From positions 1-64,000 of IMG/VR virus record IMGVR_UViG_3300007511_001983: DNA of 64,000 nt, one strand, 5' to 3'. Each line of letters begins with the position of its first letter. Position 1 is the first letter of the stretch. The notes beneath the pieces are model-generated. The model was not told the origin of the DNA, searched no databases, and saw nothing but the letters and a program-made list of their open reading frames with translations. Position numbers and translations under genes: made by a program. Shown here piece by piece: positions 2,779 through 50,049 of this stretch. This DNA is from a virus.

Positions 2779-2842
2779 AAATCTACAAATCTCCTGGTTA
2801 TAATCAAATACAAATCACTTATAAAGTGGGAAGGTAAATAAT

Positions 2843-4558
2843 TTGTCACATTCAGATACGAAAGGAGACTTCGGAAGCTTTGTGCGCCCCAATCGATTCG
2901 TCGGTTTACACGGGCACTCAGGCTTCTCGTAGTCGACTTACGACGGACTCGGCTACCCAGCTCAGCATATTGACTTCGTTCTTGACAACGGGATGGATTC
3001 ATGGGCTCTAACAGATCATGGACACGGATCAGGCCTCGCCCACGCCCGGAAGCACTTTTTAAAAATGCAAAAGGCCGGCCGCAAGTATCGGCAGGTATAC
3101 GGTGTTGAGTTCTACTTCGTCGAGGATCTCGATGTTTGGAAGCAAAACTACCTGGGTCACAAAGAAAAAGTCAAGGCTGAGAGAGATGCAAAGAAAGCTG
3201 AGAAGCTTGCAACAACCGATCTAAGCTCTGACAATGAAGATGATCTCAAATCTGAAGGACACACCATTGAGAATGAGGAGGAGTCAAAAGGCGGAGGTAA
3301 GGGGAAACCCGAATGGATGCGCCGCTATCACCTCGTAATCACTGCAAGAAACGCAGCAGGCCTAGCCAATCTTTTCACGCTAGTAAAGAGAGGATACACC
3401 GACGGCTTCTATCGGTTCCCACGAATTGACTTCAAGCTTCTCAAGCAATACAGCGAAGGTCTAACTGTAAGCTCAGCATGCATTGGCGGAATTACCGCAG
3501 GACGAACATTCCAGCAATTCCCGGGCGTTGATTTCATGGATCTTAAGCCTGATTTGCTAGATGACCCGTCAAAGATGAAGAATCTGATGGGTGTGCTCGG
3601 AAACATAACAGATCGGTTTGTCGATGCAGTAGGACAAGACAACTTCTTCTATGAGCTGCAGTTCAATAAGCTCCCAGCCCAGCATCTATCTAACCGTGCG
3701 CTTCTCGAACTACACGATCAGACGGGAATCGGGCTTATCACCACATGTGACTCCCACTATCCCGGCAAAGAATTATGGGAAGCCCGGGAGCTATATAAGA
3801 AGCTAGGCTGGATGGGAAATGATCCGTCACCTTTGCCGAAGTTCGACGAGCTAAAGTGTGAGCTTTATCCAAAAAATGCCTCAGAGGTGTGGGATGAGTT
3901 CGACCGCGACTGGCATGCCTATGACTTTTACAAAGGCAGGGAAGAGCTTATTAGAGATAGTGTAGAGAGGACACACGATATTGTCTGGGATCGTTATGAA
4001 GATGTATGGGTCGACTCTAAGGCTAAGCTACCAAACTATGCTGTGCCTCAAAAGGGACATGCATGCTATCCTGAGGCACCCAAAGATACACCCTTTCAGC
4101 AGCTTGGAAAGCTTGTAAAAGCAGCAATGATCAGTCATGATATGGCCGAAAAACCTGAGTATGTTGCGAGGATCAAAGAAGAGCTAGCTGACATTAAGTT
4201 CCTCGGATTTGAAAACTACTTCCTGACAATGTATGATGTTTTCCACTTGGCCGAGAAGAAAACTCTCTTTGGGCCTGGCCGCGGCTGCTTTTTACCTGAT
4301 ACACGTGTAAAAATGTCCGACGGATTAATGAACACAATTGAAGCAATTTCTCCCGGTGATCACGTAATTGACGCATACGGAGAAAGTCAAGAGGTTATAA
4401 AGAAGTTTGTATATGATATCGAGGAAGATATTGTTGAGCTTGAATTTGATGATGGTATCGTAATTAAGTGCACAGTAGATCATAAGTTCTTGACGTCAAA
4501 TCGAGGATGGGTTGAGGCTCAAAACTTAAGCGACGAAGATGTTATTGTTGATGTTTGA
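2843..4558 (+). CDS. dnaE: DNA polymerase III alpha, N-terminal half with split-intein N fragment (contains in-frame UAG)
   Basis: Encodes the PHP domain and first part of a bacterial-type replicative polymerase. I start it at TTG 2843, 8 bases after GGGAAGG, because translation from there gives the conserved PHP opening FVGLHGHSGFS before a TAG at 2930-2932 and continues in the same frame with YDGLGYPAQHIDF and LTDHGHGSG. Starting at ATG 2993 would remove the first metal-binding HxH. The N-extein runs to GPGRG at 4285. From Cys 4286 the protein becomes an intein N fragment of 90 residues ending at TGA. The partner is the gene at 5548. The UAG is flanked by two UCG codons (see findings). Confidence 0.85.
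2927..2935 (+). other. UCG-UAG-UCG: candidate stop-hopping site
   Basis: The codons read TCG TAG TCG ACT TAC GAC in the polymerase frame. Removing six bases (one TCG plus TAG) gives GFSTYDGLGYP, an uninterrupted PHP motif. Matching codons on both sides of a stop are the take-off and landing arrangement used in ribosomal hopping, as in T4 gene 60. A mutation or assembly error is the alternative. Confidence 0.45.
4286..4555 (+). other. Split intein, N fragment (in Pol III alpha)
   Basis: 90 residues starting at Cys1 (CFLPDTRVKMSDG, block A) with a block B CTVDHKFLT carrying the T-x-x-H pattern, and ending at a stop codon. The insertion point is between GPGRG and SGAGS of the polymerase, a highly conserved motif, as usual for inteins. 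Confidence 0.9.
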
Positions 4559-4565
4559 TATTTAT
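4558..4565 (+). promoter_or_regulatory. ATATTTAT motif upstream of homing endonuclease
   Basis: ATATTTAT followed by AAATA overlaps the end of the N-intein gene, about 54 bases before the endonuclease ATG. It could be a late-promoter-like element; T4 homing endonuclease genes often have their own late promoter. Confidence 0.25.
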
Positions 4566-4619
4566 AAATAGTTTAGTTATTCGACCCGGCCCGATATACT
4601 TATATTGAGAGGGCAAAAT

Positions 4620-5567
4620 ATGAAAACTCGAAAAACACTTTCAAAAGAAAACAAAAAATATATTGACAAACTTCTAGCAGGCAATGACCAGATGTTTATT
4701 AGTCAAGAGATGCTCGAAGTCATTAAGAAAGAAACTGGCCTGACAAGAATGGCGATAAAGCACCAGATATATGATCTTGAATTTGATTATAATTTTGGGT
4801 ATTCATGGGGTGAGTTTGATAACAAGACACCCGGAAAGGCACGAGTTTATTTTAGATGCAAGACGTGTAATTGCAAATACAGCATGTTAGCGATCAAGCT
4901 TAGAGGACGAACGTATAGCAACGACCCGATATGCCCAGATCACTATGCTAAGATTGTGACTTCGTCAAAAGTGTGGCGAGAAAAGAATAGAAGTGCACAG
5001 CTTGTTTCGCAAAATTTACCAGAGGCAAAAGAGAAGCAACGAGTTTCACAACTTCGACGACATGCACAGCCCGGAATGAAAGAAAAATATCGCCAGATCG
5101 GCTTAACACTGTGGAAAGATCCGGAGTATGCAAAAAGAGTATCAAGCTCACTTCGAGAAAAATGGAAAGATCCGGAGTATGCAAACAAGGTGATGAATAA
5201 CTCAAAGCAACAATATCATGGTAGCTACAGCGGAATGAGGTATCAAAGCTTAATTGAACTATCTTTTATTCTGTGGATGGTTAGTGTAAAAAGAAATATT
5301 GGGCGTTATAATCTAGAGGGAATAAAATGGGATGGAAACAGAAGCTATTATCCTGATTTTATTGTTGATGGAAATCTAATAGTTGAAGTCAAGGGGACCT
5401 TAAAGGGATTTATGTATCAAAGAGAAGACGAGATAAAGAGAAAGCAATCTGCTTTAATAGAGTGGTGCAAAGACAGAAAATATGAGCAAAGAATTGTTGT
5501 AAAGAAAGACATACCGAAAGAATTCTACGAGAAGGCAAGGAAAGTGCATGACAAAATTAATCTCTAA
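4620..5567 (+). CDS. Free-standing homing endonuclease, PD-(D/E)XK/Vsr-like
   Basis: 315 residues between the two halves of the split polymerase. ATG 4620 follows AGAGGG by 6 bases and is preferred to the TTG at 4605. A zinc-ribbon-like CKTCNC lies near residue 85 with a later C and H. Two copies of a W-K-D-P-E-Y-A repeat (about residues 165-190) resemble nuclease-associated modular DNA-binding motifs. The C-terminal third has YYPDFIVDGNLIVEVKG, a D...E-x-K nuclease core like Vsr-type endonucleases. Base composition is clearly more AT-rich than the polymerase. Likely role: spreading the split intein to intein-less alleles. Its 3' end overlaps the C-intein gene by 20 bases. Confidence 0.85.
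   Translation: MKTRKTLSKENKKYIDKLLAGNDQMFISQEMLEVIKKETGLTRMAIKHQIYDLEFDYNFGYSWGEFDNKTPGKARVYFRCKTCNCKYSMLAIKLRGRTYSNDPICPDHYAKIVTSSKVWREKNRSAQLVSQNLPEAKEKQRVSQLRRHAQPGMKEKYRQIGLTLWKDPEYAKRVSSSLREKWKDPEYANKVMNNSKQQYHGSYSGMRYQSLIELSFILWMVSVKRNIGRYNLEGIKWDGNRSYYPDFIVDGNLIVEVKGTLKGFMYQREDEIKRKQSALIEWCKDRKYEQRIVVKKDIPKEFYEKARKVHDKINL
5112..5185 (+). repeat. Two direct 23-bp repeats inside the endonuclease gene
   Basis: The 23 bases at 5112-5134 recur exactly at 5163-5185, 51 bases apart. They encode the duplicated W-K-D-P-E-Y-A-x motif, so the protein repeat is a recent in-frame duplication of 17 codons. Confidence 0.8.
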
Positions 5568-5655
5568 AAAGCTTGTTCCGTATGATGGAAAAGTAATTGA
5601 CCTATGTGTTGAAAATTCACACACGTATAACGTTGAAGGAAAAGCAGTTCACAAT
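5548..5655 (+). other. Split intein, C fragment (in Pol III alpha)
   Basis: 36 residues with block F (GKVIDLCVENSHTYNVEG) and the terminal His-Asn (VHN) followed by Ser as +1 residue at 5656. All residues needed for trans-splicing are visible. Confidence 0.9.
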
Positions 5656-8166
5656 TCAGGCGCCGGCAGTTTAGTCAATTACTTGCTAGGAATCACGCAG
5701 ATTGACCCGATTCCATACGGTCTACTTTGGAGTCGATTCCTCGGCAGACACAGGACATCGTGGCCGGATATCGACTCGGATGCAGGAGATCGAGATGCAC
5801 TCATTGATGCCGCCCGAGAGCTGTTTGGTAATGATGCTGTTATTCCCGTAAGCAACTTTAATACACTCAAGCTAAAGTCAATTGTCAAGGATGTTGCTAA
5901 GTTCTATGATGTTCCTTTTCAAGAGGTAAATATCGTCACAGGACCATTACAAGCTGACGTAGAGCCTCATGCTCGAGATGCTAATACTGAGAAGTCGGTA
6001 TTCGTTTTGACCCACGAGGATTGCATGAAGTATTCAGAGAAATATCTTGCTTTCATGACGAAATATCCGCATGTAGAAGATCATGTGAGCACGTTGTTTA
6101 TGGAGCAAAAATCAATTGGCCGTCATGCAGGCGGTGTTCTTATTGCAGATGCACGTGAGCTTGAGAAGACAATCCCACTAATCTCAGTTCGAGGTGACTT
6201 GCAAACTCCGTGGACTGAGGGAATGAACTTCAGAAACCTCGAAGATAATGGGTTCATTAAGTTTGATTTCCTCGGACTCACACTGATGAAAGATGTGGAA
6301 AATTGTATCCGAAGAATCCTCATTAAAGACGGGCAAAAGAATCCATCGTTTATGGATATCAAGGAATTCTTTGATAAAAACTTGAATTGTCGTACTATTA
6401 AGCAAGATGATCCAAGGGTATGGGAGAATGTATATCACCAAAAGAACTTTGCCCCAGGCATCTTTCAGTTTACTGCGCAAGGAGCTCGAAACTTCTGTAT
6501 GCAAGCTAAGCCTGAAAACATTGAGGAGCTCGGTGCAATCACAGCAATTTATCGACCGGGCCCACTGAAGGCAAATGTTCATATTGATTATGTCGCAGCA
6601 AAGAACGACCGAGACAATATCGTGTATGACCACCCAGTGATTGAGAAGATCCTCGGTGCAACTTGTGGATTCATCACGTTTCAAGAGCAGTTCATGACTT
6701 TGGCAGTGGAACTAGCAGGATTTACGCCCGGCGAATCTGATAAAATGCGTAAGACGCTGGTGAAGAAGTCGCTTGACACAATCGGCAAAAAAGGTTCAGA
6801 ACGTGATGCATTGCGCAAGAAGTTTGTTGAAGGTGCTGAGAGATTACATGATCTAGATCCGAAAATCACACATGCACTCTTCGACAAGATCGAGTTCTTC
6901 AGCCTGTATGGGTTTAATAAATCACATGCTATCTCTTACGCAATTGACAGTTACTACGCAGCATGGCTCTTTACTTATCACCCCAATGAGTGGATTGCAG
7001 CTGTTCTTCAATCTGAAAATGGAAGCCCGAAAAATCTGTCAAAAGCAATCCGCGAGGCAAAGGTTCTTGACTTCAAGTTCGAACAGTCAGACATCAACTA
7101 CTCGGGCATTGAGTGGGAATTTAACTATGAAAAGAACGCATTCATTCCGCCGCTAACCTCCATCAAAGGTTTGGGAAAGACGGCGATGGCAGAACTGATT
7201 AAGCATAGACCCTATGCGTCAGTCAAAGATCTGTTCTTTAATAAGCGCGGTGAATGGCGATTCTCAAAGGCAAATAAGACAACCTTCGGAGCGCTATGTC
7301 AAATTGAGGCATTCTCATCACTTGACGAGCTTGAAAGCGGAGATATTGAAAATCACCGACAGCTTTATCACTTGATTGTGGACAATTACGATAAAATCAA
7401 AAAAGCAAATGATGGAAAACAAAAGTGGTTGGATAAGCTTCCTGTCCTCGCTGAAAAAAATTATGAGGAGGTCAAAAAGATTATCAAGGTATTCGAAAAA
7501 TACAAGAATGAAGACACTGCATTAAAAATGAAGGCAGTTGTTGAAGATTCAAATGTCATGGATTGGAACTATATTGACAATCTTTCATCTGAGCTTAGGG
7601 TATACGAGCACAATCAGCCTCGACGACAGCTGCAAGTCGACAGATGCTTCACCCGCCTAGAAGAGAACACTGTAAAAAGAGATAAAATCTTAGATAGGCT
7701 TGATCAATATTTCGATCTCAAAGAAGCAATCAAGGATTATGAAGATATCGAAGACTGGGCAAGAGATGAAAAGATTCGGCTATATCAAGAGATCACGTCA
7801 GCAATCAATAACGAGCTTGTATTTCCGTCTGAAGTAATGGATAGAATCACGAGGACTGATATGCCGTCAGTATGTGAAATTGAGGGCGGCCAAAAGGCTG
7901 TGGCATGGGGTTGCATCGCCGAGGTTCAAAAGAAGAAGACGAAAAAGGGAAAAGATTTCTATCGTCTCAGAATGATCGATGAGCAAAACCGAAATTGCTG
8001 GCTCAGGGTTTGGGGTAAGTTCTTTGATTGGGGCGAAGAAAGAGGGCAGAAGGTTTATTATGAACCCCCTTCATTCTCTTATTGGTTGATGGAAGTTGAC
8101 GTCGATCCGAATTGGGGAGCATCTACTGCAGCATGGAAAATGAGAAGGATACCTCTTGTTGATTAA
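5548..8166 (+). CDS. dnaE: DNA polymerase III alpha, C-terminal half with split-intein C fragment
   Basis: 872 residues. Residues 1-36 are the C-intein, ending in VHN, followed by extein Ser. The C-extein begins SGAGSLVNYLLG and carries the polymerase catalytic motif PDIDSD (Asp74, Asp76), a conserved KFDFLGL near residue 240, fingers and beta-binding regions, helix-hairpin-helix-like SIKGLGKTAM, and a C-terminal OB-fold-like segment (WGCIAEVQKKKTKKGKDF). Together with the half at 2843 the spliced enzyme would have about 1,315 residues, longer than typical DnaE. It is the phage replicative polymerase candidate. The start overlaps the endonuclease stop by 20 bases. Confidence 0.92.
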   Translation: MTKLISKKLVPYDGKVIDLCVENSHTYNVEGKAVHNSGAGSLVNYLLGITQIDPIPYGLLWSRFLGRHRTSWPDIDSDAGDRDALIDAARELFGNDAVIPVSNFNTLKLKSIVKDVAKFYDVPFQEVNIVTGPLQADVEPHARDANTEKSVFVLTHEDCMKYSEKYLAFMTKYPHVEDHVSTLFMEQKSIGRHAGGVLIADARELEKTIPLISVRGDLQTPWTEGMNFRNLEDNGFIKFDFLGLTLMKDVENCIRRILIKDGQKNPSFMDIKEFFDKNLNCRTIKQDDPRVWENVYHQKNFAPGIFQFTAQGARNFCMQAKPENIEELGAITAIYRPGPLKANVHIDYVAAKNDRDNIVYDHPVIEKILGATCGFITFQEQFMTLAVELAGFTPGESDKMRKTLVKKSLDTIGKKGSERDALRKKFVEGAERLHDLDPKITHALFDKIEFFSLYGFNKSHAISYAIDSYYAAWLFTYHPNEWIAAVLQSENGSPKNLSKAIREAKVLDFKFEQSDINYSGIEWEFNYEKNAFIPPLTSIKGLGKTAMAELIKHRPYASVKDLFFNKRGEWRFSKANKTTFGALCQIEAFSSLDELESGDIENHRQLYHLIVDNYDKIKKANDGKQKWLDKLPVLAEKNYEEVKKIIKVFEKYKNEDTALKMKAVVEDSNVMDWNYIDNLSSELRVYEHNQPRRQLQVDRCFTRLEENTVKRDKILDRLDQYFDLKEAIKDYEDIEDWARDEKIRLYQEITSAINNELVFPSEVMDRITRTDMPSVCEIEGGQKAVAWGCIAEVQKKKTKKGKDFYRLRMIDEQNRNCWLRVWGKFFDWGEERGQKVYYEPPSFSYWLMEVDVDPNWGASTAAWKMRRIPLVD

Positions 8167-16005: not shown

Positions 16006-16680
16006 ATGCCTAATATGAAACTAATAATGGAAAACTGGCGTGGGTTCCTAAAAGAATCCAAACACGACGTCAAAGTTCGTCACTTATCATTCGAAATGAT
16101 GCAATATATCAAATCAGGTGAAACAGAAGATCCATTCATAACTGACATAACAATCAAAAACCACAATCTAATCGATCCTGACGACGAGTTTGATGACCCT
16201 GAAACCTGGGACGACGTTGAGGTCACACTTGATGTCCTCCGAGATCCAGAGTGGGGAATTCCGTTCACATTAAACGGAGGAGCTTCAGGCGATGCTATCG
16301 AACTAAACTTGACAATAAATCCAGAATACGAACCAAACATCTGGTCAGATATCAATATCGAACTCCACGATGCCATCCGACACGAAATAGAGCATATAAC
16401 CCAGGATAGAAATCCAAGTAAAGGGCTAAAAGATTCACATCAGGAAAGCACACTTCCATATGCAGAATATCTTTTACTCCCACACGAAATACCGGCCTTC
16501 GTTAACGGCTTCAATGCCAGAAGGAAAAAAATGAAATCTACTTTAACTCAAGCTATAGATGATTTCTTGGTCAAGCATAGGGCAATGTTCACAAACGGCA
16601 AAGAAGACAAAGAAATAAAAAGAGTTAGACAGGTATGGCTCGACTGGGCAAAAGAAAACTTGCCTAACACACCAATGTAA
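16006..16680 (+). CDS. Putative zincin-type metallopeptidase
   Basis: 224 residues. AIRHEIEHITQ near residue 128 is a canonical H-E-x-x-H zinc-binding helix; a later LLPHEIPAFVNGF segment could supply the third ligand. The N terminus (MENWRGFLKES) is a short amphipathic leader ending in L-x-E like the tags of neighbouring proteins. A role as a virion-associated or delivered peptidase is possible. Weak ribosome site; ATG 16015 is an alternative start. Confidence 0.6.
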   Translation: MPNMKLIMENWRGFLKESKHDVKVRHLSFEMMQYIKSGETEDPFITDITIKNHNLIDPDDEFDDPETWDDVEVTLDVLRDPEWGIPFTLNGGASGDAIELNLTINPEYEPNIWSDINIELHDAIRHEIEHITQDRNPSKGLKDSHQESTLPYAEYLLLPHEIPAFVNGFNARRKKMKSTLTQAIDDFLVKHRAMFTNGKEDKEIKRVRQVWLDWAKENLPNTPM

Positions 16681-18811: not shown

Positions 18812-18832
18812 GATCAAAATGTATCTACTTGT

Positions 18833-18840
18833 ATATTTAT
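18833..18840 (+). promoter_or_regulatory. ATATTTAT motif before homing endonuclease
   Basis: 21 bases before the ATG at 18862, in the gap between the N-intein gene and the endonuclease gene. Confidence 0.35.
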
Positions 18841-18861
18841 ATACATAGGGAGCCATATTCA

Positions 18862-19872
18862 ATGTGTAGTAAAGAAAAATATTGTAGAGAGTGCGGAGAA
18901 TCAATATCGAGCAAAAAAACATTTTGCGATTCGATTTGCTATGAGAAAAATAGAAAAGTTGATGATATAAAAAAGTGCAATTATTGCAAAGAAGACTTTG
19001 CTTGCCAGGGTTCTAGTCGGCTATACTGCTCTAAAGAATGCAGAACTAAAGGGACGAGAGTTAAAAATGGATATAAGAAAAAGCTCTGTCAAGAATGCAA
19101 AGAAGAAATATTGGGCCGCGGCACCAAATACTGTTCAAACAAATGCAAAGGGCTAGCAAAGGCTGGCAAGAATAACTCATTTTATGGCAAGAAGCACTCT
19201 AAAGAAACCAGGGAGAAGATAAGAAATGCTCTATCAGGAAAGCTATCCGGAGACAAAAATCCATTTTACGGCAAAATACACTCGGATGCTACAAAACAGA
19301 AGATAATTGATGGAAACAAAAAATTTAGAGAAGAAAATAAAGTCTTAGTTCTTGAAAGAACACTGCGACGTCTAGGTTTGACTGAAAGCAAGCTGGAGGG
19401 CCTGTGGCACACGTATTCGACCACACTCGAGTTTAACCAGAGTGATCTTAAAAGACTCGCGGGCAACATAGACATAAGATCGATTAAAAAATATTTGTTC
19501 TTTTTTAATATAGTTGATGAAGATGAATTTGAAAAAACTGTGCATAAGAAAAAGATGGGTCGAGCCGGATCTTCCCCTGAGCGACGATTATATGAAATGT
19601 TATGTGCTAAGTTTGGCAGGAGAAACATAAGTAGGCAATTTAAGATAGAGAGAAAGTTTTATGATTTTATAGTTTTTGGAAAATATTTGATAGAATATGA
19701 TGGTTATTACTGGCATAATAATTCAAAATCAAGAGACGATATTAAGGATGACATTGCAAAAAGAAGTGGATATCCTTTGTATCGAGTAAAAGAGCCAAAA
19801 AATAGAAGCGTTGATTTTATTGATGAAATAGAAAAAATTGAAGGGTTTATAAATGAAGTTCGAATTAGTTGA
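18862..19872 (+). CDS. Free-standing homing endonuclease, zinc-finger/NUMOD3/Vsr-like
   Basis: 336 residues from ATG 18862, which has AGGGAG 9 bases upstream; the TTG at 18829 has no such site. Three Cys-rich fingers (CRECGE, CNYCKE, CQECKE with later C pairs) are followed by two NUMOD3 units (NSFYGKKHSKETREKI and NPFYGKIHSDATKQKI) and a C-terminal Vsr/EDxHD-like nuclease core (SSPERRLYEML, KFYDFIVFGKYLIEYDGYYWH). It lies between the IMPDH halves and overlaps the C-intein gene by 20 bases. AT-rich. Likely mobilises the split intein. Confidence 0.88.
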   Translation: MCSKEKYCRECGESISSKKTFCDSICYEKNRKVDDIKKCNYCKEDFACQGSSRLYCSKECRTKGTRVKNGYKKKLCQECKEEILGRGTKYCSNKCKGLAKAGKNNSFYGKKHSKETREKIRNALSGKLSGDKNPFYGKIHSDATKQKIIDGNKKFREENKVLVLERTLRRLGLTESKLEGLWHTYSTTLEFNQSDLKRLAGNIDIRSIKKYLFFFNIVDEDEFEKTVHKKKMGRAGSSPERRLYEMLCAKFGRRNISRQFKIERKFYDFIVFGKYLIEYDGYYWHNNSKSRDDIKDDIAKRSGYPLYRVKEPKNRSVDFIDEIEKIEGFINEVRIS

Positions 19873-49961: not shown

Positions 49962-50049
49962 GGAAAGTTGGCCGAGTGGTCGAAGGCGACGCATTAGAAA
50001 TGCGTTGAGGTGCAAGTCTCCGTGGGTTCGAATCCCACACTTTCCTCCA
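49962..50049 (+). tRNA. tRNA-Ser(AGA)
   Basis: Acceptor stem GGAAAGT/ACTTTCC, D arm, anticodon stem ACGCA/TGCGT with loop TTAGAAA, long variable arm and TPsiC arm GTGGG-TTCGAAT-CCCAC; CCA is encoded (50047-50049). The anticodon reads AGA, for UCU codons, with an unusual A at position 34. The base before CCA is T, not the usual G of serine tRNAs. A TATAAT lies at 49947-49952. Confidence 0.93.

Follow-up and report, generated by a model that had tools for sequence, protein, structure and literature searches.

We propose, as a reading with about an even chance of being right, that a stop codon kept in the first PHP loop of the DNA polymerase gene dnaE in at least two bacterial clades, and independently in a jumbo phage, is hopped over by the ribosome. 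This would be the first stop-hop in nature, and it would probably serve as a switch of polymerase synthesis. Translation past the stop, hopping rather than readthrough and any regulatory role are what we infer from the comparison of sequences.

The phage window, the whole stretch of 64,000 nucleotides analysed here (positions 1 to 64,000 of IMGVR_UViG_3300007511_001983), is part of a 73.5 kb record (G000) from a large (jumbo) phage genome. Tubulin-like, GroEL, ClpB-like, FtsH-like and PPDK-like genes are present, and long colinear stretches are shared with a 235 kb relative. A C-family DNA polymerase gene (dnaE) with matches to the PHP, DNA_pol3_alpha and finger domains occupies positions 2843–8166 and is interrupted twice, by a TAG 30 codons into the gene and, at the GPGRG motif, by a split intein (Table 1). 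Split inteins with an endonuclease-like ORF between the halves are a known arrangement (fractured genes). The split intein (4289–5655) is missing from relative L004, and the alignment of the N-terminal polymerase half to relatives stops at 4288. Directly upstream of dnaE a dCMP/cytidine deaminase-like gene is located (2371–2778), and a NUMOD3 and DUF559-type homing endonuclease-like gene is found at 18829–19872.

Table 1. Features of the phage dnaE region (positions in the window).
Feature	Position	Strand	Basis
Candidate ribosome-binding site GGGAAGG	2828–2834	+	Sequence
dnaE leader, 29 codons from TTG; PHP ligands 1 and 2 (HGH, 2909–2917)	2843–2929	+	Sequence, Taq DnaE alignment
TCG, proposed take-off codon	2927–2929	+	Sequence; role proposed from the bacterial parallel
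In-frame TAG stop	2930–2932	+	Sequence; also in sister contig G001
TCG, proposed landing codon	2933–2935	+	Sequence; role proposed
Rest of N-terminal polymerase half: PHP from TYDG on and start of polymerase core	2936–4288	+	Pfam PF02811, PF07733
N-terminal split-intein half (CFLPDT...) and stop codon	4289–4558	+	PF14890, TIGR01445
Endonuclease-like ORF between intein halves	4605–5567	+	phrog_945 endonuclease, weak match
C-terminal intein half (5548–5655), then C-terminal polymerase half from 5656	5548–8166	+	Domain matches

The initial annotation had described a reading frame that starts at TTG 2843, passes through HGHSGFS to a TAG enclosed by two TCG codons and continues in the same frame with TYDGLGYPAQHIDF...LTDHG. 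Both the nine bases and the frame, which stays open to 4555, are present as described. Skipping of six bases, for which an intact motif had been predicted, gives GFSTYDG, and this is indeed what the phage relatives read. In the alignment to Taq DnaE the stop follows PHP metal ligand 2 (His) and precedes ligand 3 (Asp) (ligands according to Table 1 of PMC3666897), and the remaining PHP ligands are intact in the phage gene. Between 2888 and 2929 every difference from relative L004 is synonymous.

The same nine bases occur in a sister contig (IMGVR_UViG_3300009372_003836, G001), which differs from the window record by 38 SNPs over 29,628 bp and is otherwise identical. All 38 SNPs fall into two tracts, 16444–16633 and 2956–3070, the latter with 24 SNPs and beginning 24 bp downstream of the stop. 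At 2991–3070 the window allele encodes several residues that are absent from relatives. Both contigs may come from one phage population. Since a separate assembly with nearby SNPs carries the same bases, the stop is not a one-off sequencing error. Metagenomic contigs and strain variation 24 bp downstream of the site could raise the suspicion of an assembly or sequencing artefact, as could the apparently frame-broken dnaE of relative G004, but with the six bases present in two assemblies that differ nearby, and with bacterial stops recurring in 13 species (see below), such an artefact is hardly conceivable. The dnaE of G004 is found in pieces in different frames (G004:C1:62178-62942), and these breaks are probably sequencing errors in that contig.

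Distant relatives (69–76% DNA identity) read GFS-TYDG or GYS-TYDG in an open frame without insertion. Besides the sister contig, no viral relative with the TAGTCG insertion was found, a search with three patterns revealed no further phages with such stops, and INPHARED contained nothing close to the window dnaE at the level of DNA. Alignment with related phages had been proposed as a check on the insertion. Conservation of the six bases is not observed, the relatives being without them, and their absence does not amount to a refutation but shows only that the insertion is lineage-specific.

Reassignment of the genetic code had been considered unlikely in view of normal TAG usage, and is now excluded as far as testable. 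The six TAG-terminated ORFs cited for this argument all exist, and among 124 ORFs that do not overlap and span at least 60 aa, TAG terminates 25. When the phage genome and a further 27 kb of the sister contig were aligned to the proteins of relatives, about 58 kb were covered, and with gene ends and wrongly extended starts set aside the TAG in dnaE was the one internal stop to emerge. A search of the 73.5 kb record, the additional 27 kb of the sister contig and the relatives yielded no suppressor tRNA. These observations speak against a reassigned code (e.g. code 15) or a phage suppressor tRNA, and the single internal stop in about 58 kb also against general gene decay. The only phage tRNA is Ser(AGA) at 49962–50049 of the window; in three relatives a tRNA-Ser occurs whose anticodon is GGA and whose anticodon arm differs. 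Editing of the mRNA by the deaminase-like gene upstream of dnaE was considered as well; C-to-U conversion cannot remove UAG, and G004, the only one of the relatives searched with a homologue of this gene (about 8 kb from its dnaE), has a dnaE without the insertion.

A single C-family polymerase, with no duplicate, was found in the G000 record, and neither there nor in six related records was a PF00929 proofreading exonuclease detected, so that the phage may well need an active PHP domain. The best explanation for the phage site appears to be a natural +6 stop-hop by which full-length polymerase is made, and we regard it as fairly probable. A ribosome that arrives at codon 29, a UCG, would have UAG in its A site, and in a fraction of cases peptidyl-tRNA(Ser) would detach as the mRNA advances by six bases. 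Re-pairing of the tRNA(Ser) with the identical UCG would then translate 9 nt into one serine and yield a polymerase of full length whose PHP active site is normal. Ribosomes that do not hop would end with a 29-residue peptide, and since these terminate early, hopping may control how much polymerase is made.

Ribosomal hopping had already been claimed in the initial annotation, with the identical codons around the stop as its hallmark. The mechanism is the one best supported by our data, whereas the argument from identical codons is weak evidence when taken from one gene; the support comes from the bacterial dnaE stops described below. Identical codons surround the stop in 14 of 834 cases (1.7%) at the ends of ORFs, and TCG accounts for 0.7% of the codons in the C-terminal part of the phage polymerase gene.

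On the phage evidence alone, a recent nonsense insertion that is tolerated would be a serious rival; either the polymerase would then be made in truncated form from ATG 2993, or the genotype would be doomed. The six inserted bases complete an 8-bp palindrome with one bulge (TCGTAGTC/GAC-T-TACGA), as 55 of 4,096 random 6-mers (1.3%) would do equally well, and because of this palindrome, template switching in a hairpin could have yielded both the stop and the matching codon. The relatives lack the insertion, and dS, saturated in comparison to nearly all of the relatives compared, sets no limit on the age of the insertion. On the other hand, it is carried by two assemblies with different nearby SNPs, the record contains no duplicate polymerase that was found, and the truncation would cost three of the nine PHP ligands together with a structural part of the domain. 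Pol III of E. coli is destabilised when its PHP domain is mutated (PMC3666897). Together with the parallel in 13 bacterial species, this makes a mere nonsense insertion rather improbable.

This parallel was found while the length of the PHP loop was measured in bacteria. Genome G016 reads TCC CTT CTT TAG CTT GAT GGG where S-L-L-D-G is the norm, and its nearest relatives in the set, G076 (TAG), G077 (TAG) and G078 (TGA), also have a stop at this site. In each of these four genomes the stop-bearing dnaE is the sole polymerase-family match. The pattern HLHxH-[ST]-x-[FY]-S followed by 12 free bases and D-G was then applied to 398 genomes of one bacterial phylum. It matched in 13 genomes, and all 13 carry an in-frame stop directly after S-L-L, at dnaE codon 17 (nine TGA and four TAG; loci L100, L118, L120, L121 and L133–L154). 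Past the stop, 12 of them have an open frame of 1,040–1,143 codons, and in the thirteenth it runs to the contig end.

On the DnaE tree the carriers form two clades, with 2 changes (forced by the starred branches) compared to a mean of 11.9 after shuffling. As the carriers fall into two clades, the stop arose twice, or once with subsequent losses, and it has been kept through substantial divergence. Clade A reads CTT TAG or CTT TGA followed by CTT or CTA. In clade B, which comprises 9 of 12 genomes of one class, CTG TGA or CTG TAG is followed by GTG, ATG, CTG, TTG or CCG.

The codon after the stop shares at least two of three bases with the codon before it in all 13 bacteria, against a background of 17% in the same genes. 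In clade B the first base of the post-stop codon is free and T/C-G is kept, opposite to the drift of coding sequence. The pre-stop codons TCC CTC CTG are identical in 9 of 9 species of this clade, as opposed to 7 of 112 comparable residues gene-wide; elsewhere in the gene synonymous sites are nearly randomised, with a single codon in use at 38 of 466 invariant residues. Such frozen codons point to a signal at the RNA level. A conserved six-pair helix between the start region and the codons before the stop in the bacteria, the 3' arm of which hardly varies, is only suggestive. The leader HLHLHTQYSLL is nearly invariant, with one Q-to-E exchange across the 13 species. Upstream of the bacterial stop a strong Shine-Dalgarno-like GGGGGTGG stretch was noticed. 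The ribosomal protein bL9 is an anti-hopping factor; its loss was considered as a cause of hopping in these bacteria and rejected, bL9 being present in all 13 carriers.

Matching codons directly adjacent to the stop, the hallmark of a stop-hop, are thus present on both sides of the comparison, with TCG TAG TCG in the phage and the agreement described above in the bacteria. A skip of six bases restores the canonical protein in either case, GFSTYDG as in the phage relatives and SLLDG with a ligand spacing of 7 in the bacteria, where the hop product would read HTQYSLLDGACK without inserted residues. Every one of the 45 bacterial DnaEs without a stop that were measured has a spacing of 7 between ligands 2 and 3.

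The main rival to hopping is readthrough, in which a near-cognate or host suppressor tRNA would decode UAG and the loop would become two residues longer (FS-X-S-TYDG). This is the simplest form of stop recoding, and a suppressor tRNA could be supplied by the host. Some DnaEs of more distant viral contigs (L008 group) have a ligand spacing of 8, so that a loop longer by one residue does not seem impossible in viral DnaE. Hopping is nevertheless favoured since it restores the spacing of 7, whereas readthrough would give 9. Moreover, if the extra codons were translated, versions with sense codons should exist, and no two-codon sense insertion at the PHP loop was found in the pattern search of the 398 genomes. 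The post-stop codon also tracks the pre-stop codon, which is not expected from readthrough, and the interchange of UAG and UGA at one site makes a dedicated suppressor or selenocysteine unlikely. In the phage, the lack of a suppressor tRNA in the sequences searched above adds to this. Termination seems to be normal elsewhere in the carriers, as no internal stops were present in the listed ABC-transporter matches of four of them. Taken together, we consider readthrough unlikely, and hopping in bacterial dnaE appears somewhat more likely than in the phage.

Termination followed by reinitiation would place the restart just past the stop (NTG in clade B) or at ATG 2993 (phage). Such a restart is suggested by ATG, GTG, TTG or CTG right after the stop in 8 of 9 clade B species, but the stop is followed by CCG, CTT or CTA in the other species and by TCG in the phage, and there is no clear Shine-Dalgarno sequence ahead of 2993. 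In a separate leader the near-invariant HLHLHTQYSLL would be needless, and the invariant HxH ligands would be parted from the enzyme. We therefore regard reinitiation as very improbable.

In prfB (RF2), with its +1 programmed frameshift, a stop likewise appears in frame soon after the start, and that gene too is an important one for bacteria; the CTT TGA C of G078 even resembles the prfB site. In dnaE, however, a +1 shift misses the frame of DG, for which an in-frame skip of six bases is required.

Phage and bacterial stops are situated in the same seven-residue segment, that of the phage two codons earlier, and the take-off codon specifies Ser in the phage versus Leu in the bacteria. Since the DnaEs are only distantly related (24% identity of the phage protein to its single match in the genome collection), the two sites look like convergence or a shared regulatory need. 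Judging from the patterns described, the bacterial stop is clearly maintained, whereas the phage site is known only from two near-identical assemblies.

According to literature, stop-hops in which 9 nt are read as one amino acid were observed on synthetic constructs, and a 2016 review states that no natural in-frame stop-hop is known (PMC5009743). Natural bypassing named there comprises T4 gene 60, a likely case in the Streptomyces phage Hau3 and the mitochondrial byps. In the literature searched, which was covered in part, no paper on an in-frame stop in dnaE or on a natural stop-hop was found. The closest known system is the synthetic stop-hop in E. coli (Weiss et al. 1987, cited in PMC5009743), with a stop between matching codons and 9 nt yielding one residue in the zero frame. 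In contrast, the sites described here are natural, lie in a replicative polymerase gene and are kept in two bacterial clades, and the hop is predicted from their sequence.

T4 gene 60, named as the precedent in the initial annotation, holds only as a distant one. Similar to the case at hand, it is a phage gene with matching take-off and landing codons and UAG directly after take-off, but its gap spans 50 nt and comes with signals from a stem-loop and the nascent peptide (PMC5009743). The phage dnaE gap measures 6 nt and is in frame, and the predicted RNA fold around the phage site is unremarkable and no better than that of shuffled sequences, with no take-off stem-loop of the gene 60 type. The byps of Magnusiomyces capitatus mitochondria are also short inserts in essential genes that are skipped at translation, with codons that are not always perfectly matched. 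They differ in being 81 mobile-like inserts spread over a mitochondrial genome (PMC5009743), whereas in the present case a single site of a single gene is affected and stops are normal in other places.

We regard the stop that bacterial dnaE genes conserve in their PHP loop as a more important result than the phage case. Bypassing as such dates back to T4 gene 60, but its simplest form, the stop-hop, was previously described from constructs only. Natural variants of the stop, the take-off and the landing codon have already been supplied by evolution, which makes the question testable at once. A further question is what led two dnaE lineages that are unrelated to acquire a stop in one and the same loop. 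If the proposal is true, a dnaE gene that works can end up labelled as a pseudogene by annotation pipelines.
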